DNA from: Lentisphaera profundi | Lineage (GTDB): Bacteria; Verrucomicrobiota; Lentisphaeria; Lentisphaerales; Lentisphaeraceae | Direction: 5' to 3' | NCBI RefSeq assembly: GCF_028728065.1 | Contig: NZ_CP117812.1 | Coordinates: forward strand, 124,001 to 188,000 | Length of the DNA stretch: 64,000 nucleotides | In this document: piece after piece, positions 12,257 through 20,346 of the stretch | Layout: each line of letters starts with the position of its first letter | How positions within the stretch are numbered: position 1 is the stretch's first letter | Position numbers and translations under genes: made by a program | Notes under the pieces: model-generated | Database searches by the model: none | The model's input: the letters and a program-made list of their open reading frames with translations, nothing else | What the model was told of the DNA's origin: nothing

Positions 12257-12266
12257 TAATATATTA
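12257..12266. promoter_or_regulatory. operator candidate 2 (palindrome touching the start codon)
   Basis: Second exact copy of TAATATATTA. Its last base is the A of the hipB-like ATG, so protein bound here could block transcript elongation, and its presence takes the place of a ribosome-binding site. Confidence 0.45.
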
Positions 12267-12559
12267 TGTATAGATTAGATACTCCAGATGAAGTGGCTTT
12301 GAATTTAGCTCAGAGAATGAAATCTAGGCGCTTAGCTCTGGCTTGGAAGCAGCAAACCTTAGCTGAACGCTCTGGAGTGAGTTTGGCGTCCTTGCGTCGT
12401 TTTGAGAAAAGTGGTCTTATTTCTCTTGAGTCGTTATTGAAGCTAGCCTTTGCTCTCGATCACTTAGATGATTTCGAGAATATATTTAAAGCTCCTTTAG
12501 CACAGAGTCTGAAAGATTTGGAAGTTCGTGAAGATAAACCGCAGCGGGGGCGCTTATGA
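12266..12559 (+). CDS. hipB: HipB-like antitoxin, Cro/CI-type helix-turn-helix
   Basis: 97 residues, mostly one XRE helix-turn-helix domain (about residues 12-70; QQTLAERSGVSLASLRRFEK is helices 2-3). A charged tail follows (LEVREDKPQRGRL). Its stop overlaps the start of the HipA-like toxin gene in ATGA, so the two are translationally coupled. By family it represses its own operon as a dimer and holds the toxin inactive. Two identical palindromes sit at the promoter and start codon. Other XRE proteins look alike, but the pairing with hipA makes the role clear. Confidence 0.85.
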   Translation: MYRLDTPDEVALNLAQRMKSRRLALAWKQQTLAERSGVSLASLRRFEKSGLISLESLLKLAFALDHLDDFENIFKAPLAQSLKDLEVREDKPQRGRL

Positions 12560-13782
12560 AAAAGTTAGAGGTTTATTATCAGCAAAGTGAAAGTGATTCA
12601 CAACTCATTGGAACTTTAGCTGAACAGGATAGAAAAATTTACTTTGAGTACGCAAGTGACTTTTTATCTGAGCCCTTGTGGTTATCTCCTTTTAAATTAG
12701 CTCCTAAATCGGGTCTTTATGAATTTAAAGATTATGATTTTGGACAAGTTTTTGGTCTATTTGATGATTCTTTACCGGATGGCTGGGGACTTCTTTTAAT
12801 GGATCGTATGTTTCGTAAACAGGGGCTTAATCCTAATCACTTGTCGATACTGGATCGCTTGGCTTATTTGGGTTCACGAACGATGGGTGCCTTAAGCTAT
12901 CGCCCTTGCTCGCAGTCCGAAGATGTATTGCAAGAAGTGCTAGATTTACAAGTCATGACTGGTGAAGTAGAGAAAGTCTGGCAAGGTTCACTTAGCGATG
13001 TATTGCCTCAATTGCTCCACCATGGAGGCAGTCCTGGGGGCGCACGGCCCAAAGTTTTAGCAGGAATTAAGGGTGATGAAATCATCACGGCAGATATTTT
13101 ACCGGATGGCTTTGAAGCGTGGATTTTAAAGTTTATTGCGCCTAATGAGCACAACGATTCCGGGAAGCTTGAGTATATTTACTCACTAATGGCGCGAAAA
13201 GCAGCGTTAAGAATGCCTGAGACGAGACTCTATAAAAGTGCTGATAAATCTTATTACTTTGGGATTAAACGCTTTGATCGTAAAGCAGGCAAGCGGGTCC
13301 ATATTCATACTTTTGGGAACTTAATTCATTCCAATTATCGTATTCCTTCAAGTGATTATTTAGATCTACTTAAAGTCACTCGAGTCTTAACAAAAAATCA
13401 AGAAGATGTGGAACAAGTCTTTAGGCAGGCGGTATTTAATATTGCTAGTCATAATCGCGATGACCATGTGAAGAATTTTTCCTTCATCTATGACAAAGAG
13501 TGGTCAGCAGCACCGTCCTATGATTTAACTTTTAATAGTGGTCCAGGTGGTGAGCATAGTATGAGTATTTGCGGAGAAGGCAAAAATCCCAGGGGGCAAG
13601 GCTTAGTCAAACTGGCGGAGAAATCTGGGATTTCAGTCAAAAAAGTAAAAAGCACAATTGAAGAAGTCTCTGAATCACTTAATCAATTTTCGAGCTTAGC
13701 AAAAGAATACGAAATTGAAGCTAAAGAGATCCAAATGATTGATAAGCACATTCAAGCAAATCTCAAGCGTCTCAGACTATAA
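12556..13782 (+). CDS. hipA: HipA-family Ser/Thr kinase toxin
   Basis: 408 residues with the HipA N-terminal domain (about 1-110; LFDDSLPDGWGLLLMDR) and the kinase-like C-terminal domain. Conserved sites are the P-loop-like GGSPGGARPK near residue 155, a lysine in FGIKRFDRK near 235, the catalytic loop HNRDDHVKNFSF near 300 (Asp as base, Asn as metal ligand) and the DFG-equivalent APSYDLTF near 320. Members phosphorylate translation components (E. coli HipA acts on GltX), producing growth arrest and persistence. It overlaps the antitoxin gene by four bases. All key residues are present, so it should be active. The exact target cannot be told from sequence. Confidence 0.88.
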   Translation: MKKLEVYYQQSESDSQLIGTLAEQDRKIYFEYASDFLSEPLWLSPFKLAPKSGLYEFKDYDFGQVFGLFDDSLPDGWGLLLMDRMFRKQGLNPNHLSILDRLAYLGSRTMGALSYRPCSQSEDVLQEVLDLQVMTGEVEKVWQGSLSDVLPQLLHHGGSPGGARPKVLAGIKGDEIITADILPDGFEAWILKFIAPNEHNDSGKLEYIYSLMARKAALRMPETRLYKSADKSYYFGIKRFDRKAGKRVHIHTFGNLIHSNYRIPSSDYLDLLKVTRVLTKNQEDVEQVFRQAVFNIASHNRDDHVKNFSFIYDKEWSAAPSYDLTFNSGPGGEHSMSICGEGKNPRGQGLVKLAEKSGISVKKVKSTIEEVSESLNQFSSLAKEYEIEAKEIQMIDKHIQANLKRLRL

Positions 13783-14035: not shown

Positions 14036-14576
14036 GACCCTGCACTAAAGTACAGGGGTTCCGGACTGGAAGTCCGGGGTATTGTCATTCAACAATAAAA
14101 TTATCATCGCTAGCATCATCTGGTTTACCGTGGTGTTCTAAGTACGCATTAACTAATTCTTCGGTCAAGTCACCTGTACTCCATGCATCTAGCCTGTTGC
14201 CAAAAAGTGCGGACCCCAATATTGTTTTTTCAAATGCGGAAATTCTTTTTGGAGCAAACGTGAACTCCGACCTTTCAACATTTTCACTATATCGCTCACA
14301 CTTACATTCGGTGGATACTCAATGTGCATATGGTCTGTGCTAACGGCTCCTTTCAAAATACGAACATCAAGTGCTCCACAGCCTTGTCTCAGCAACTCTC
14401 TACACCTAAGCTTGAGATCGCCTGTCAAAACCTTATATCTATATTTGGTAACCCAAACTATGTGTACACTTAACTTGGTAACTGTATGATGTCCATTTCT
14501 TGCTCTTTTTATCTAAGTAGCATACCTCAAATTCCGCGCTTTTTTATGATAAAGCCTTCCACTAAAGTGGAAGGTT
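14036..14576 (-). mobile_element. decayed IS200/IS605-type insertion sequence
   Basis: A tnpA pseudogene lies between hairpins typical of single-strand transposition. On the 3' side are CCCTG-c-ACTAAAGT-a-CAGGG (14038-14057) and CCGGACT-gga-AGTCCGG (14061-14077). On the 5' side is CCTTCCAC-TAAA-GTGGAAGG (14555-14574). There are no terminal inverted repeats or target duplications, as expected for the family, and no tnpB. Exact cleavage sites cannot be set without a relative. Confidence 0.55.
14085..14512 (-). pseudogene. tnpA: Y1-transposase TnpA (IS200/IS605), frameshifted
   Basis: The N-terminal strands (KLSVHIVWVTKYRYKVL) and the HUH metal-binding motif (DHMHIEYPP) are intact, as is the region SDIVKMLKGRSS to LKKQYWGPHF. 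After ATG (Ala-Thr-Gly) the frame hits a TAG where a GYWxMSTG-like segment is expected. The C-terminal helix resumes in another frame (STGDLTEELVNAYLEHHGK), ending with stop codon 14085. The probable catalytic Tyr is in NAYLEHH. No ATG start remains at the 5' end; an in-frame stop lies just upstream. It is therefore inactive. Confidence 0.75.
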
Positions 14577-14968: not shown

Positions 14969-15697
14969 TCATTGTAGGATTTCTTGAATGTTTACATCGA
15001 GAACATTGGCAATGTCTAGAGCAGTTTTAAAATAAACTTTGGCTCCAGCTTCGGCTCTTTTGATGGTAGATAATGAAAGAGGGCATTTACGATTAATACT
15101 TTGATTGACAAAATTATCTACACTCATTAACTTTGACTGCCTGATTTGTTTTATTTTCTCACCATTAACAAAGACTCGCCCTGAAGATATTTTTTTATTT
15201 TCTTCTACTAAATCTCTAGCCCTTTTTTCAAGTTTTCTAATGAGATTTAAGCTTTTTTTAGACTCTGCTTCTTGCATTGCTTTCAAAAAAAACATATCAA
15301 GAGTTTGATTATAAGGCTCAAAGTTTTTTGATTGTATCTTATTAGTAATGTCTGGATTGTGTATTGATATACTTGTTAGTAAAAGCATTGAATTTACATC
15401 TGAAAAAAAATAGGCTTTCCCTTTTATAGTTATAGAGTTTTGATGATCTTTAAAAACGACCTCTTCGTCTGAATCATTTTTAATAAAATCATATGTTAAT
15501 TCTTTAAAAAAATAAAAGGGAGTAAACGTATCTGATATATAATCATCAAGTTCAAATTTTACATCTAACCAACTAAAACCAGGGCCCTTGTCTAAAACCT
15601 TATTTTCATCAGAAATTAGTAAATAAAAGGGAAAAATTTTGTTTAACCAATCATAACTAATTCCAAATTTTTTCACATAATCATCTCGGTGTATCAT
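14969..15697 (-). CDS. HNOBA-domain protein fused to a Cro/CI-type helix-turn-helix
   Basis: 242 residues. Residues about 8-150 look like the HNOBA (H-NOX-associated, PAS-like) domain of soluble guanylate cyclases and bacterial partners: FPFYLLISDENKVLDKG, then ITIKGKAYFFSDVNSMLLLTS. They are followed by a helical coiled-coil segment (SKKSLNLIRKLEKRARDLVEEN, split here only for description). Instead of a cyclase, GGDEF or kinase output, residues about 180-242 form an XRE helix-turn-helix (GEKIKQIRQSKLMSVDNF, STIKRAEAG, ALDIANVLDVNIQEIL). The start codon is one base after the stop of the H-NOX gene, so the two are coupled. Inferred role: a transcription factor controlled by the gas state of the H-NOX partner. 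Domain calls are by eye. Confidence 0.72.
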   Translation of the reverse strand: MIHRDDYVKKFGISYDWLNKIFPFYLLISDENKVLDKGPGFSWLDVKFELDDYISDTFTPFYFFKELTYDFIKNDSDEEVVFKDHQNSITIKGKAYFFSDVNSMLLLTSISIHNPDITNKIQSKNFEPYNQTLDMFFLKAMQEAESKKSLNLIRKLEKRARDLVEENKKISSGRVFVNGEKIKQIRQSKLMSVDNFVNQSINRKCPLSLSTIKRAEAGAKVYFKTALDIANVLDVNIQEILQ

Positions 15698-15698
15698 A

Positions 15699-16238
15699 CT
15701 AAATATATTTAACTTTTAGTAATACCTTTTCTGAATCCTTGATCACGTCAGTAATACTGATAGTTTTGTTGAATTTCGTAGCTAGAGCTTCAACTAAACC
15801 AATAACCATAAACTCTAACCCGTCTCTCGTTGATCTATAAATCAGATCAAAATCCTGTTCACTTTCATTAACTACCTGAAAGTGTGGAGGCTGTAAATTT
15901 GAAAATGAGGTAGCAACATAAAGGTGTAATTTATTTAGGTTCTTAAGGAAATCTATAAATGAATTTCCTCCAATTTTATATGCTTCACCATATCCCTCTG
16001 ATATAGCAAAATCTATCCAATAATGACCAAATTTTTTTAGTACTTCGTCAGTGCTTGTGTTTAATTTATCACTAACTTGCTGAACCAATTCAAATATTAA
16101 TTTATCGTCATAATAATCAGTTTTTATGAAATCTCTCTCAGGAAATTCAGCTTTATCACATATTTCTACCCATGCTTGAGCACCCATTTCTGTTTCTACT
16201 AATTTTTTTACAGCAATACCTATCAATCCATACATCAT
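15699..16238 (-). CDS. H-NOX heme gas sensor
   Basis: 179 residues, the usual size of a stand-alone bacterial H-NOX. It has the N-terminal MYGLIGIAVKKLV, FGHYWIDFA near residue 70, the proximal heme-ligating His105 in NKLHLYV, the PPHF turn, and the heme-propionate motif Y-x-S-x-R at 134-138. The residue five after the motif Arg, where O2-binding members carry a distal Tyr, is Phe143; this favours NO (or CO) sensing over O2. GGAG lies five bases before the first ATG and eight before the second, either of which may be used. It forms an operon with the HNOBA-HTH gene, its likely signalling partner. Confidence 0.9.
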   Translation of the reverse strand: MMYGLIGIAVKKLVETEMGAQAWVEICDKAEFPERDFIKTDYYDDKLIFELVQQVSDKLNTSTDEVLKKFGHYWIDFAISEGYGEAYKIGGNSFIDFLKNLNKLHLYVATSFSNLQPPHFQVVNESEQDFDLIYRSTRDGLEFMVIGLVEALATKFNKTISITDVIKDSEKVLLKVKYI

Positions 16239-16322: not shown

Positions 16323-16351
16323 AAGATATTACTTAACGTTCATGAAGTCAA
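16323..16351 (-). promoter_or_regulatory. promoter of the H-NOX / HNOBA-HTH operon
   Basis: On the minus strand TTGACT and TATCTT are separated by 17 bases. The predicted start is near 16316, giving a leader of about 75 bases before the H-NOX start. Read by eye. Confidence 0.45.
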
Positions 16352-16403: not shown

Positions 16404-16586
16404 TCAGAGAGATTTGTTTTCATCAATCCTAGTGAAACCCCAGGCAATTTCTGCGGAGACTTGAGAGGCTTTTTTAAGTGGGGCTTTTTTAAAGGCAGAG
16501 AGAACCTCTTTGCGGTATTCGCGAGGACTGAGGTAAAAGGCTTTAGAGAAGCAATGGGAATAGTGCTGTGAGCTAAGTACATTCAC
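16404..16586 (-). pseudogene. AraC-family regulator, C-terminal fragment
   Basis: The open frame reads SSQHYSHCFSKAFYLSPREYRKE, matching the second helix-turn-helix of AraC/XylS regulators (pattern S.F.R.FK...G.SP..YR). It runs to a stop at the expected end of the domain. All upstream parts are missing, and a hairpin CACCCTC-TTC-GAGGGTG (16584-16600) lies at the break. A poorer relative of the same sequence is at 13806-13993. AraC regulators often sit beside sulfatase genes, so it may have travelled with the sulfatase fragment next door. Confidence 0.65.
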
Positions 16587-17292: not shown

Positions 17293-20200
17293 TTATTTAA
17301 TTTGTGTAATTTTAAGTGTAAAAATATCTTTGCATGGTAGACGCGTCGGGTTGAGTTGAGGTAGGGTGATCTCTACTCCTTTTGCAGTCTTAGTGTATTG
17401 TAGATCACCTTCTACGCCCAGCAGGGTTACTTTTGAATTAGAACTTACTTCGAGGTCACGAATTTCTATTTTTCCACTACTTGGCCATACTGGCATTAAG
17501 CCATAAAGAGTCTGATCCTTTTGTGTGAAGTAGAGTTGTTTATGAGCGTTACCTGGTTTTGGGTTGAGAGTTACTTCGAAAATAGGGAAGCCTGATTTAT
17601 AATTTGACGTACTGAATTTAGGTATTTTTCCTACACTCCATTGGCAAGATTTTTCCCAGGTTTTAGTCCCATAGATTGCTTCGCCATTGACGTCTAACCA
17701 GTGGCCTATTTCAATAAGGCGATTTTGCATAAAAACAGGTATGCGACCATCAGCAGTAGGTCCAATATTCAACAATAAGTTCCCTCCGCGACTGACTAAG
17801 TCAACGAGCATGAACACTAATTCTTTGGTACTGTTATATTGAGTAAAATCCTCATTTCTATTGAATCCAAAAGAATGGCCCATGCCGCGATTTTCTTCCC
17901 AAGGTTTATCTACGTTTTCAAAGCCAGAGCCATATTCCGTGGTGAAGTAGCCCCCATTTTTACCACGACCCTTACCCCATCGGTCATTAATGATGACTTC
18001 ATCACGATTGATTGCACTATTATAGAGCTGTGCGAGAAGAGGCTTGGTTTCCCAATAATTATCATCGGCTAACCAATCCCCATCGGAGAAAAGTAAGGCA
18101 GGTTTATATTTTTCCACGAGTTCGCGGAACTGAGGATAAAAAACTTCTTTTATATATTTCTTGTAACGATTGTTATTTCCAGAGCGAATTTCTTTCATGT
18201 TATCATTGTAGGGATTAAACCAATCCCAGAGTGAATAATAATAACCCATTTTCACACCTCCAACGGAGCGAACTGAATCAGCTAACTCTTGACAGAGATC
18301 ACGTCCTGGACCTGAATCGACAGAGTTCCATGGCATGCCAAATGATTTACTCGCCTGCTTATTTGGCCAAAGGGTATAACCATCATGGTGCTTTGAAGTT
18401 AAAACAATGTATTTTGCACCGGATTTTTTGAAAATGTTCGCCCATTGATCGGGCTCGAACATTTCGCAATTAAATTGATCACGAAAGTTTTTGTAAGGGA
18501 AGCCTTTGCCATAGACGCGATCATGGAACTTATTAACTTCTTGATGGCGATAAATCTTGTGCTTAACACCCTCTGGTGGTGTAGAAATAAGATCATACCA
18601 ATACCATTCAGCATAATGACCTTTTGGCGCATAAGAAGGAACTGAATAAAGGCCCCAATGGATAAATATCCCAAACTTTGCATCACTATACCATTGGGGT
18701 GCTTGGCGTGAATTCAACGAGTCCCAATTAGCTTCGTAGCGAGGTCTGGCTGTCTGTTTAGCGTAGTTATTTGATATTTGAATTGCCTTAAGTTGATCTT
18801 CTTTATCGTAATCCCAGTAATCTTCAATAATCTCATTGAAGGGGTATTTTTGATCGTCTTCTTTATACTTTTTACGCATCGCTTTAAGCTGAATTTTCAA
18901 GTCTTGAATAAGCTCGATATTACTCGGTTTATTATAGATGTTATTCATTTCTTTAGGATCATTAATTAAATCGTAGAGCTCCCACGCTGGAGGCGTGAGT
19001 GGATCGTTAGACCAAGCAGAGCCATAAAACAAAATCAGTTTGTGTGTTTTTGTACGAATGGCAATATGGGCTGGGTTGTCATGATGAAACATGCTCATCC
19101 AATAGTGATAATAAGCCGCTTGCTTTGAATTTTCATTTTCTTTCCCAGTCTCTAGTTCGTCTTTGAAACTGGTCCCTTGCATATATGTGGGTGTCGCTAC
19201 ACCTGCAAAATCCAACATAGTGGGAGCAAAATCGACATTTTCAGTCATAAAATCAAATGTACTGCCCGGTTTAATGCTTTTTGGATAACGGATTATAAAT
19301 GGCATGCGCATACTTTCTTCATAGGCCCATCGCTTGTCAATGTAATCGTGTTCGCCAAGCATAAAGCCTTGATCACCGGTGTAAATAATCACGGTATTAT
19401 CGTAGAGGCCTTCATGCTTTAAATAATCGACTACACGTTTAATATTATCGTCCACGCCTTTGACACAGCGGAGGTATTTTTTAAGATATTTTTGATAGGC
19501 TTGACGTTTATATTCTTTGTCAGATAAATTAGAATCAATTTGTTCATCAGGAAAGGTATTGTTTAAATCTAAGCCCATATTGCGGCGCGGATTGCGCTTG
19601 CCAACAGATGTGCCGATTTTTGCTTTTAGTTCATCATTGTGCCCACGTGTCGCAATTGATCCGTGATTACCTTGTTCCCATAAGCTCTCCGGTTCTGGGA
19701 TGTCTACATCCTCTAAATACGTATCGTAACGCGGGGCATTCTCAAACATGTCATGGGGTGCTTTAAAGTGATATTTCAAGAAGAATGGTTTGGTTTTGTC
19801 CCTTACCTTTAAGTAGTCTAATACGGAATCAGTAATACAGTCAGAACTGTGCCCTTGCATCTTCACCATCTCTTTCTGTCCTTTAAGAAAAAATGATGGA
19901 TTGAAATAATCGCCTTGGCCCTTGAGTACTTTATAATAGTCGAAGGCCTCTGGGCGTGATTTTAAATGCCACTTGCCGATGACGGCAGTTTGATAGCCAG
20001 CACTTTTCATTTCACTTGCCAAGAATTGCTTCTCTAGGGGCAATGGCTGAGCTAGAATGGACACTCCATTTACAGCGCTATATTGGCCCGTCATAATACT
20101 CGCTCGGCTAGGACTACAGATCGAATTAGTACAGAAAGTGTTGCTTAAAATGGCGCCTTCACGAGCTAATTTATCTATATTAGGAGTGGGGTTGAGCTTG

Positions 20201-20346
20201 GCTAAGTGGCTGGAATAAACGCCAATGGCTTGACTGGTATGGTCATCTGACATGATGAACAAGATATTTGGCTTGCTTGTTTCTGCTTGACTTATGAGGC
20301 TGGTGAAAAAAGCAATGTAAATAAGTAGCGTAGGGGATGATTTCAT
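17293..20346 (-). CDS. secreted sulfatase / GH29 alpha-L-fucosidase fusion
   Basis: 1017 residues with two enzyme domains. After a signal peptide (to about SQAETS), residues 25-505 are an S1 sulfatase: NILFIMSDDHT metal site, FGly motif CSPSR near residue 77, KWHLKSR, and TGDQGFMLGEHD. Residues about 540-1015 are a GH29 fucosidase: KFGIFIHWGLYSVPSYAP, SKHHDGYTLWPN, the nucleophile-type FSDGDW, and NLLLNIGPTADG, followed by a beta-sandwich end. The joining segment is short, and no frameshift or stop lies between. Such a protein would remove sulfate and fucose from the same glycan, fucoidan being the obvious candidate (inference). It has no operon partners on its strand. The sulfatase fragment lies just downstream. 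Confidence 0.92.
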   Translation of the reverse strand: MKSSPTLLIYIAFFTSLISQAETSKPNILFIMSDDHTSQAIGVYSSHLAKLNPTPNIDKLAREGAILSNTFCTNSICSPSRASIMTGQYSAVNGVSILAQPLPLEKQFLASEMKSAGYQTAVIGKWHLKSRPEAFDYYKVLKGQGDYFNPSFFLKGQKEMVKMQGHSSDCITDSVLDYLKVRDKTKPFFLKYHFKAPHDMFENAPRYDTYLEDVDIPEPESLWEQGNHGSIATRGHNDELKAKIGTSVGKRNPRRNMGLDLNNTFPDEQIDSNLSDKEYKRQAYQKYLKKYLRCVKGVDDNIKRVVDYLKHEGLYDNTVIIYTGDQGFMLGEHDYIDKRWAYEESMRMPFIIRYPKSIKPGSTFDFMTENVDFAPTMLDFAGVATPTYMQGTSFKDELETGKENENSKQAAYYHYWMSMFHHDNPAHIAIRTKTHKLILFYGSAWSNDPLTPPAWELYDLINDPKEMNNIYNKPSNIELIQDLKIQLKAMRKKYKEDDQKYPFNEIIEDYWDYDKEDQLKAIQISNNYAKQTARPRYEANWDSLNSRQAPQWYSDAKFGIFIHWGLYSVPSYAPKGHYAEWYWYDLISTPPEGVKHKIYRHQEVNKFHDRVYGKGFPYKNFRDQFNCEMFEPDQWANIFKKSGAKYIVLTSKHHDGYTLWPNKQASKSFGMPWNSVDSGPGRDLCQELADSVRSVGGVKMGYYYSLWDWFNPYNDNMKEIRSGNNNRYKKYIKEVFYPQFRELVEKYKPALLFSDGDWLADDNYWETKPLLAQLYNSAINRDEVIINDRWGKGRGKNGGYFTTEYGSGFENVDKPWEENRGMGHSFGFNRNEDFTQYNSTKELVFMLVDLVSRGGNLLLNIGPTADGRIPVFMQNRLIEIGHWLDVNGEAIYGTKTWEKSCQWSVGKIPKFSTSNYKSGFPIFEVTLNPKPGNAHKQLYFTQKDQTLYGLMPVWPSSGKIEIRDLEVSSNSKVTLLGVEGDLQYTKTAKGVEITLPQLNPTRLPCKDIFTLKITQIK

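Follow-up and report, generated by a model that had tools for sequence, protein, structure and literature searches.

The genomes of Lentisphaera species contain a gene pair in which a stand-alone H-NOX gas sensor is followed by a protein whose HNOBA domain leads not into an enzyme, but into a predicted helix-turn-helix (HTH) domain of the Cro/C1 (XRE) type. Judged from sequence comparisons, this combination is a genuine and new variant, at the level of the genus, of the H-NOX/HNOBA systems, with a putative DNA-binding domain as its output. What has been observed are the domains of the two proteins, the order in which they occur, the co-conservation of the pair and the selection acting on both genes. 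The interpretation that we regard as probable is that the two genes form an operon, encoding a two-protein, gas-responsive transcription switch that works without a phosphorelay.

The window (i.e., the whole stretch of 64,000 nucleotides that was analysed) comes from a Lentisphaera genome of 5.46 Mb. The two open reading frames, both on the minus strand and one base apart, are found where an earlier note on this DNA had located them, and their main features are as follows:

15699..16238, minus strand: H-NOX (HNOB) gene, stand-alone haem gas sensor, 179 aa
15924..15926, minus strand: codon of the proximal haem ligand His105, invariant in the aligned H-NOX proteins
15825..15839, minus strand: haem-propionate motif Y134-x-S136-x-R138, identified by alignment
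15698: one-base gap separating the stop of H-NOX from the start of its partner (TAG-T-ATG)
14969..15697, minus strand: HNOBA-HTH gene, 242 aa
15185..15649, minus strand: HNOBA domain (PAS-like part and long helix), residues 17-171, from a clade profile
15185..15310, minus strand: predicted coiled-coil-like long helix, residues 130-171, inside the HNOBA profile match, from a low-confidence model
14972..15181, minus strand: predicted Cro/C1 (XRE)-type HTH, residues 173-242, net charge +5, from a model, structure alignment and a STAND paralogue
15050..15076, minus strand: recognition-helix stretch SLSTIKRAE, residues 208-216, from an alignment

The TAG-T-ATG layout suggests that translation of the two genes is coupled. 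The second Met of the H-NOX reading frame (16235) is probably its true start, as in L. marina.

The H-NOX sensor

The first protein matches the Pfam HNOB domain over the entire domain (148.9 bits against a cut-off of 25.5; E 1.6e-43), and a PDB sequence comparison placed it closest to the solved structures of Alr2278 (E 2e-30) and of guanylate cyclase (beta subunit). The residues H105, Y134, S136, and R138, which make up the His105 and Y-x-S-x-R motif at 134-138 named in the earlier note, are invariant in all four aligned H-NOX proteins, and its Trp74 and Met144 are the same residues as in Alr2278. A search of the genome indicated that this is its only H-NOX. The protein does not contain the distal Tyr of the O2-binding type, a residue that is required for O2 binding by H-NOX according to a review (PMC8738867), and NO is therefore its likelier ligand.

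The signal for such a switch could also be other than NO, viz. O2, CO or redox state. The choice of ligand by H-NOX proteins differs among clades and some of them are redox-responsive (PMC8738867), and Hcp, a common NO-stress gene, was not found in the genome. However, besides the absence of the O2-type distal Tyr, the sequence of this H-NOX (P0002) contains no Cys-rich motif, and its nearest solved relatives are the two proteins named above; hence, we consider a signal other than NO to be unlikely. The genome also contains COX1-type oxidases, which may be either nitric oxide reductases or oxidases.

The HNOBA Domain of the Partner Protein

The HNOBA domain is said to have been defined by Iyer et al. 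in 2003. In searches with the Pfam model of this domain (PF07701), the 242 aa protein scored 18.7 bits, which is below the gathering cut-off of 23.4, as was also observed for its orthologue from L. marina (20.0), whereas the orthologue from the third species, G002, was above it (P0006; 29.3). A clade profile, which was constructed from six H-NOX-linked HNOBA kinases belonging to the GTDB phylum of Lentisphaera (E-values at Z 1e6), matched residues 17-171 of the 242 aa protein with 56 bits and an E-value of 1.6e-13, and it had no other match in the 183 ORFs of the window and none in 2000 shuffled copies. The HNOBA domain of another protein (P0005) showed 26% identity to the 242 aa protein (4e-11). 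Because the clade profile matches residues 17-171 and an orthologue passes the Pfam threshold, the HNOBA domain is by these comparisons real over its whole length, despite the sub-cut-off score. The earlier note had assigned an HNOBA domain to residues 8-150 and proposed an HMM search as a check; the domain itself is upheld by the clade profile and by the G002 orthologue, but it starts at about residue 17 rather than 8, and a literal application of the Pfam threshold fails.

The coiled coil that had also been proposed corresponds to the predicted coiled-coil-like helix at about residues 130-171. A full-length AlphaFold model of the protein, which was based on an alignment of two sequences and had a pLDDT of 42, was left out of the conclusions. 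Searches of the 242 aa protein gave no match to HisKA, HATPase_c, or GGDEF in Pfam, no match in NCBIfam and only chance-like matches in a sequence comparison with the PDB. The protein contains no kinase, GGDEF or cyclase part and, as previously claimed, an HTH replaces the enzymatic output. In the Lentisphaera branch the hallmark residues of HNOBA have changed, SPW to SIS and HD to YN, and the contact with H-NOX may therefore have altered.

The HTH Domain and its STAND Relatives

The C-terminal XRE-type HTH described in the earlier note does not reach the Pfam cut-off (HTH_26, 14.8 against 22), but it is supported by a Cro/C1-like predicted fold and by a related HTH-AAA protein from Vibrio (tblastn, 30% identity), which passes HTH_3 with a score of 23.6 against a cut-off of 23. 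All seven close relatives match HTH_3 weakly, the best with 3.9e-4. A model of the HTH part (pLDDT 75, i.e., of moderate confidence) consists of five helices, with the HTH at helices 2-3. VIA-align matched this model to TP901-1 CI, 434 Cro, SinR, and C.AhdI with Z-scores of 7.7-8.8 over 59-67 residues; SinR (Z 8.0) and 434 Cro (Z 8.2) aligned with an rmsd of 1.7-1.8 over 60 residues, although a Z of about 8 is common for helical folds. The same list of matches includes the enzymes HppE and HEPD, which carry an HTH fold that is not used on DNA, and the fold by itself is therefore no proof of DNA binding. The binding of DNA by this domain is favoured by its net charge of +5 and by its recognition-helix stretch, where S208, S210, T211, K213, R214, A215, and E216 are invariant in the three HNOBA-HTH proteins and four STAND relatives.

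These STAND relatives, proteins of about 1000 aa from the same genomes, carry the closest relatives of the HTH at their N-termini, with 48-53% identity in this genome. The HTH is followed in them by an ATPase, TPR and a domain of the amide/urea-binding type, the last being assigned from Pfam runs on the first two proteins listed here, and they contain no HNOBA:

L010:2144-5131, minus strand: HTH-STAND-TPR protein with C-terminal Peripla_BP_5, amide/urea-binding type
L011:4895-8002, plus strand: HTH-STAND-TPR protein with C-terminal Peripla_BP_5, amide/urea-binding type
L014:3811-6927, minus strand: HTH-STAND-TPR relative
L015:2651-5746, minus strand: HTH-STAND-TPR relative

A small lipoprotein-like gene is found near each of these four STAND genes, and the presence of Peripla_BP_5 on HTH-STAND-TPR proteins is unusual in that it puts a periplasmic-binding fold to use inside the cell. 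The simplest reading of these relationships is that the HTH was gained by a domain shuffle inside the Lentisphaera lineage. In the plasmid collection only the HTH part found matches, mostly AAA ATPases, and the viral-contig collection contained no relative of the 242 aa protein. A remnant of a STAND gene, as a trace of a fusion origin, is not present behind the HTH.

Another possible function of the HTH is that of a docking module, where the HNOBA-HTH protein would relay the H-NOX signal by binding a protein, e.g., one of the HTH-STAND regulators. As the nearest relatives of the HTH form the beginning of large proteins of the same genome, such hetero-association is conceivable, and HTH folds do occur in enzymes that do not act on DNA. 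However, the charge, the invariant recognition-helix stretch and the Cro/C1 fold all suit DNA binding, and the related Vibrio protein is placed within a metabolic gene cluster, as would be expected of a regulator. We accordingly hold docking to be quite improbable and retain the transcription switch as the preferred reading.

Conservation and Distribution of the Gene Pair

The two genes are adjacent in all three Lentisphaera species, i.e., the present one, L. marina and G002, with the partner starting one base after the H-NOX stop in L. marina and five bases after it in G002. The orthologues of the HNOBA-HTH protein are 89% (L. marina) and 57% (G002) identical to it, and no genes other than these two are common to the surroundings of H-NOX in the three species. 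Comparison with L. marina gave dN/dS values of about 0.25-0.27, indicating that both genes are under purifying selection; for the individual parts the values were 0.27 (H-NOX), 0.28 (HNOBA), and 0.19 (HTH). The retention of the pair in three species together with these dN/dS values excludes chance. Even though the HNOBA hallmarks have changed and the Lentisphaera HNOBA-HTH lineage forms a long branch, it is highly improbable that this protein is an ordinary XRE regulator, no longer linked to H-NOX and lying beside it fortuitously, since the pair has stayed together under purifying selection while its other neighbours changed. In G002, a second, separate H-NOX occurs with an HNOBA histidine kinase (L052).

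The distribution of HNOBA proteins was surveyed in the GTDB phylum of Lentisphaera using a nine-row HNOBA profile, and relatives of the 242 aa protein were also sought in plasmid and viral-contig collections. The 388 phylum genomes contained nine HNOBA proteins, viz. the three HNOBA-HTH proteins and six kinases, and full-length HNOBA-HTH proteins were limited to the three Lentisphaera genomes (198 genomes of the class). In 384 genomes from another class of the phylum, a set overlapping the first, there were 17 HNOBA matches, four of which were already known and are all kinases. Among ten further matches analysed with Pfam, six are kinases (L083, L084, L086, L087, L088, and L090), three combine HNOBA with PAS/GAF in an ORF that lacks a kinase (L079, L080, and L085), and one, a weak match, has HNOBA with a receiver and Hpt (L081); this classification of outputs leaves out L089, L091 (equal in length to L090) and L082, a fragment at a contig end. 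No other HNOBA protein scanned in the phylum survey contains an HTH. The pairing of HNOBA-HTH genes with H-NOX genes, for which a survey of genomes had been suggested, was seen among the proteins scanned in this phylum in the three Lentisphaera genomes only. The earlier note knew of no described fusion of this kind; beyond these three genomes, none was found in the phylum survey or in the plasmid and viral-contig collections, and no description of an HNOBA joined to an HTH was found in the open-access papers searched. In another genome (G110), an HNOBA histidine kinase adjoins a protein that by eye resembles FIST/NosP (L053:1361-2500 and L053:2549-5554, both on the minus strand), with no H-NOX seen next to it; a swap of the NO sensor is possible for this pair.

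Proposed Mechanism and Relationship to Known Systems

In the transcription switch that we envisage, the ferrous haem of H-NOX, anchored by His105, would bind a diatomic gas (NO being the likeliest), as suggested by the family and motif of the protein. Binding of the gas would shift the fold of H-NOX and, on the model of soluble guanylate cyclase and the H-NOX/HNOBA kinases, this change would be passed to the PAS-like HNOBA domain of the neighbouring protein. In related proteins the coiled coil drives a kinase or cyclase; here it would set the spacing of the two C-terminal HTH domains in a dimer, and this spacing would turn DNA binding on or off. Since the HTH is shared with the STAND proteins and its recognition helix has been kept, gas and amide/urea-type inputs may compete at one operator. 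A scheme of this kind, where H-NOX is the allosteric subunit that places a DNA-binding protein under gas control and the same site receives both inputs, gas by way of H-NOX and an amide/urea-type ligand by way of STAND, is conceivable but not likely.

Several known systems share parts of this architecture. NorR, NsrR, and DNR connect NO to DNA without a phosphorelay, with the sensor and the DNA-binding part in one chain; the Lentisphaera pair would follow the same phosphorelay-free plan, but its haem sensor is a separate protein. Soluble guanylate cyclase likewise arranges a sensor, HNOBA and a coiled coil one after the other, in a single chain ending in a cyclase, whereas in Lentisphaera this arrangement is split over two proteins and ends in an HTH. 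In the pairs of H-NOX and HNOBA hybrid histidine kinases (e.g., G015 L013, G268 L054, G279 L056, and G002 L052), H-NOX is likewise followed by HNOBA and a coiled-coil-like helix, but the output is a histidine kinase with a receiver and sometimes Hpt, in contrast to the HTH of the Lentisphaera pair, which has no phosphorelay part. The stand-alone H-NOX proteins of Shewanella, Vibrio, Legionella, and Paracoccus also have sensor and effector encoded separately by adjacent genes; unlike in the scheme proposed for the Lentisphaera pair, they reach transcription via a kinase or c-di-GMP (PMC8738867).

The same review lists kinases and DGC/PDE enzymes as characterised H-NOX partners and the FIST and Nudix families as neighbours, describes HnoC of S. 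oneidensis as a transcription factor controlled by phosphorylation, and records that as of 2022 no bacterial H-NOX had been solved at high resolution together with its signalling partner (PMC8738867). Within c-di-GMP signalling, HNOBA has been linked to GGDEF proteins (PMC8846402). The plan of sensor, helix and HTH is known in general, because the signalling helix joins signalling domains to HTH domains at low frequency (PMC1592074). If the proposed switch is correct, no shorter H-NOX pathway would be known: it would lead from gas sensor to DNA with neither a kinase nor a second messenger, a direct route that is undescribed for the H-NOX family in the open-access literature searched. It would also mean that a DNA-binding output can be driven by the HNOBA/coiled-coil relay, which has been studied in soluble guanylate cyclase, and it would provide a small, soluble two-protein system where a simple DNA-binding assay could report on signalling from H-NOX to HNOBA.

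Upstream DNA and Flanking Genes

A motif scan of the DNA upstream of H-NOX identified the following site:

16323..16351, minus strand: candidate sigma-70 promoter TTGACT-17-TATCTT

The number of sigma-70-like sites in this region is not above that in shuffles; in L. marina, the alignment places TTGACT-17-TATTTT at the same position. A search upstream of H-NOX in the three species and of the four STAND relatives showed inverted repeats and k-mers in common at close to chance levels, and it revealed no convincing operator or shared site upstream of H-NOX. G002 alone exceeded its shuffles in inverted repeats (14 vs 7.2), all of these being overlapping hits in AT-rich runs. Direct repeats of 10-11 bp, of the type ACAGCTAAAA, are present upstream of the STAND genes in L011 (upstream of 4895), L014, and L015, and they constitute a possible operator of these genes. 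In this genome the paired repeat has a single exact match, which precedes one of the STAND genes, and the repeat is not present upstream of H-NOX.

Upstream of H-NOX, L. marina has an intact AraC gene (L001:4336-5295), of which the window retains a remnant encoding the C-terminal residues 264-319 of an AraC-type regulator (16407-16574, minus strand); neither form was seen in G002. A HipB/HipA-like pair, recognised by eye (12266-13782, plus strand), is convergent with the HNOBA-HTH gene and is also found in L. marina (L001:6923-8439), with none seen beside the HNOBA-HTH gene in G002. The window also contains a fragment resembling an IS200-type transposase (14189-14428, minus strand) and an ORF of 1017 aa in one frame (17293-20346, minus strand), in which a sulfatase is followed by an alpha-L-fucosidase-like part, both assignments being made by eye.
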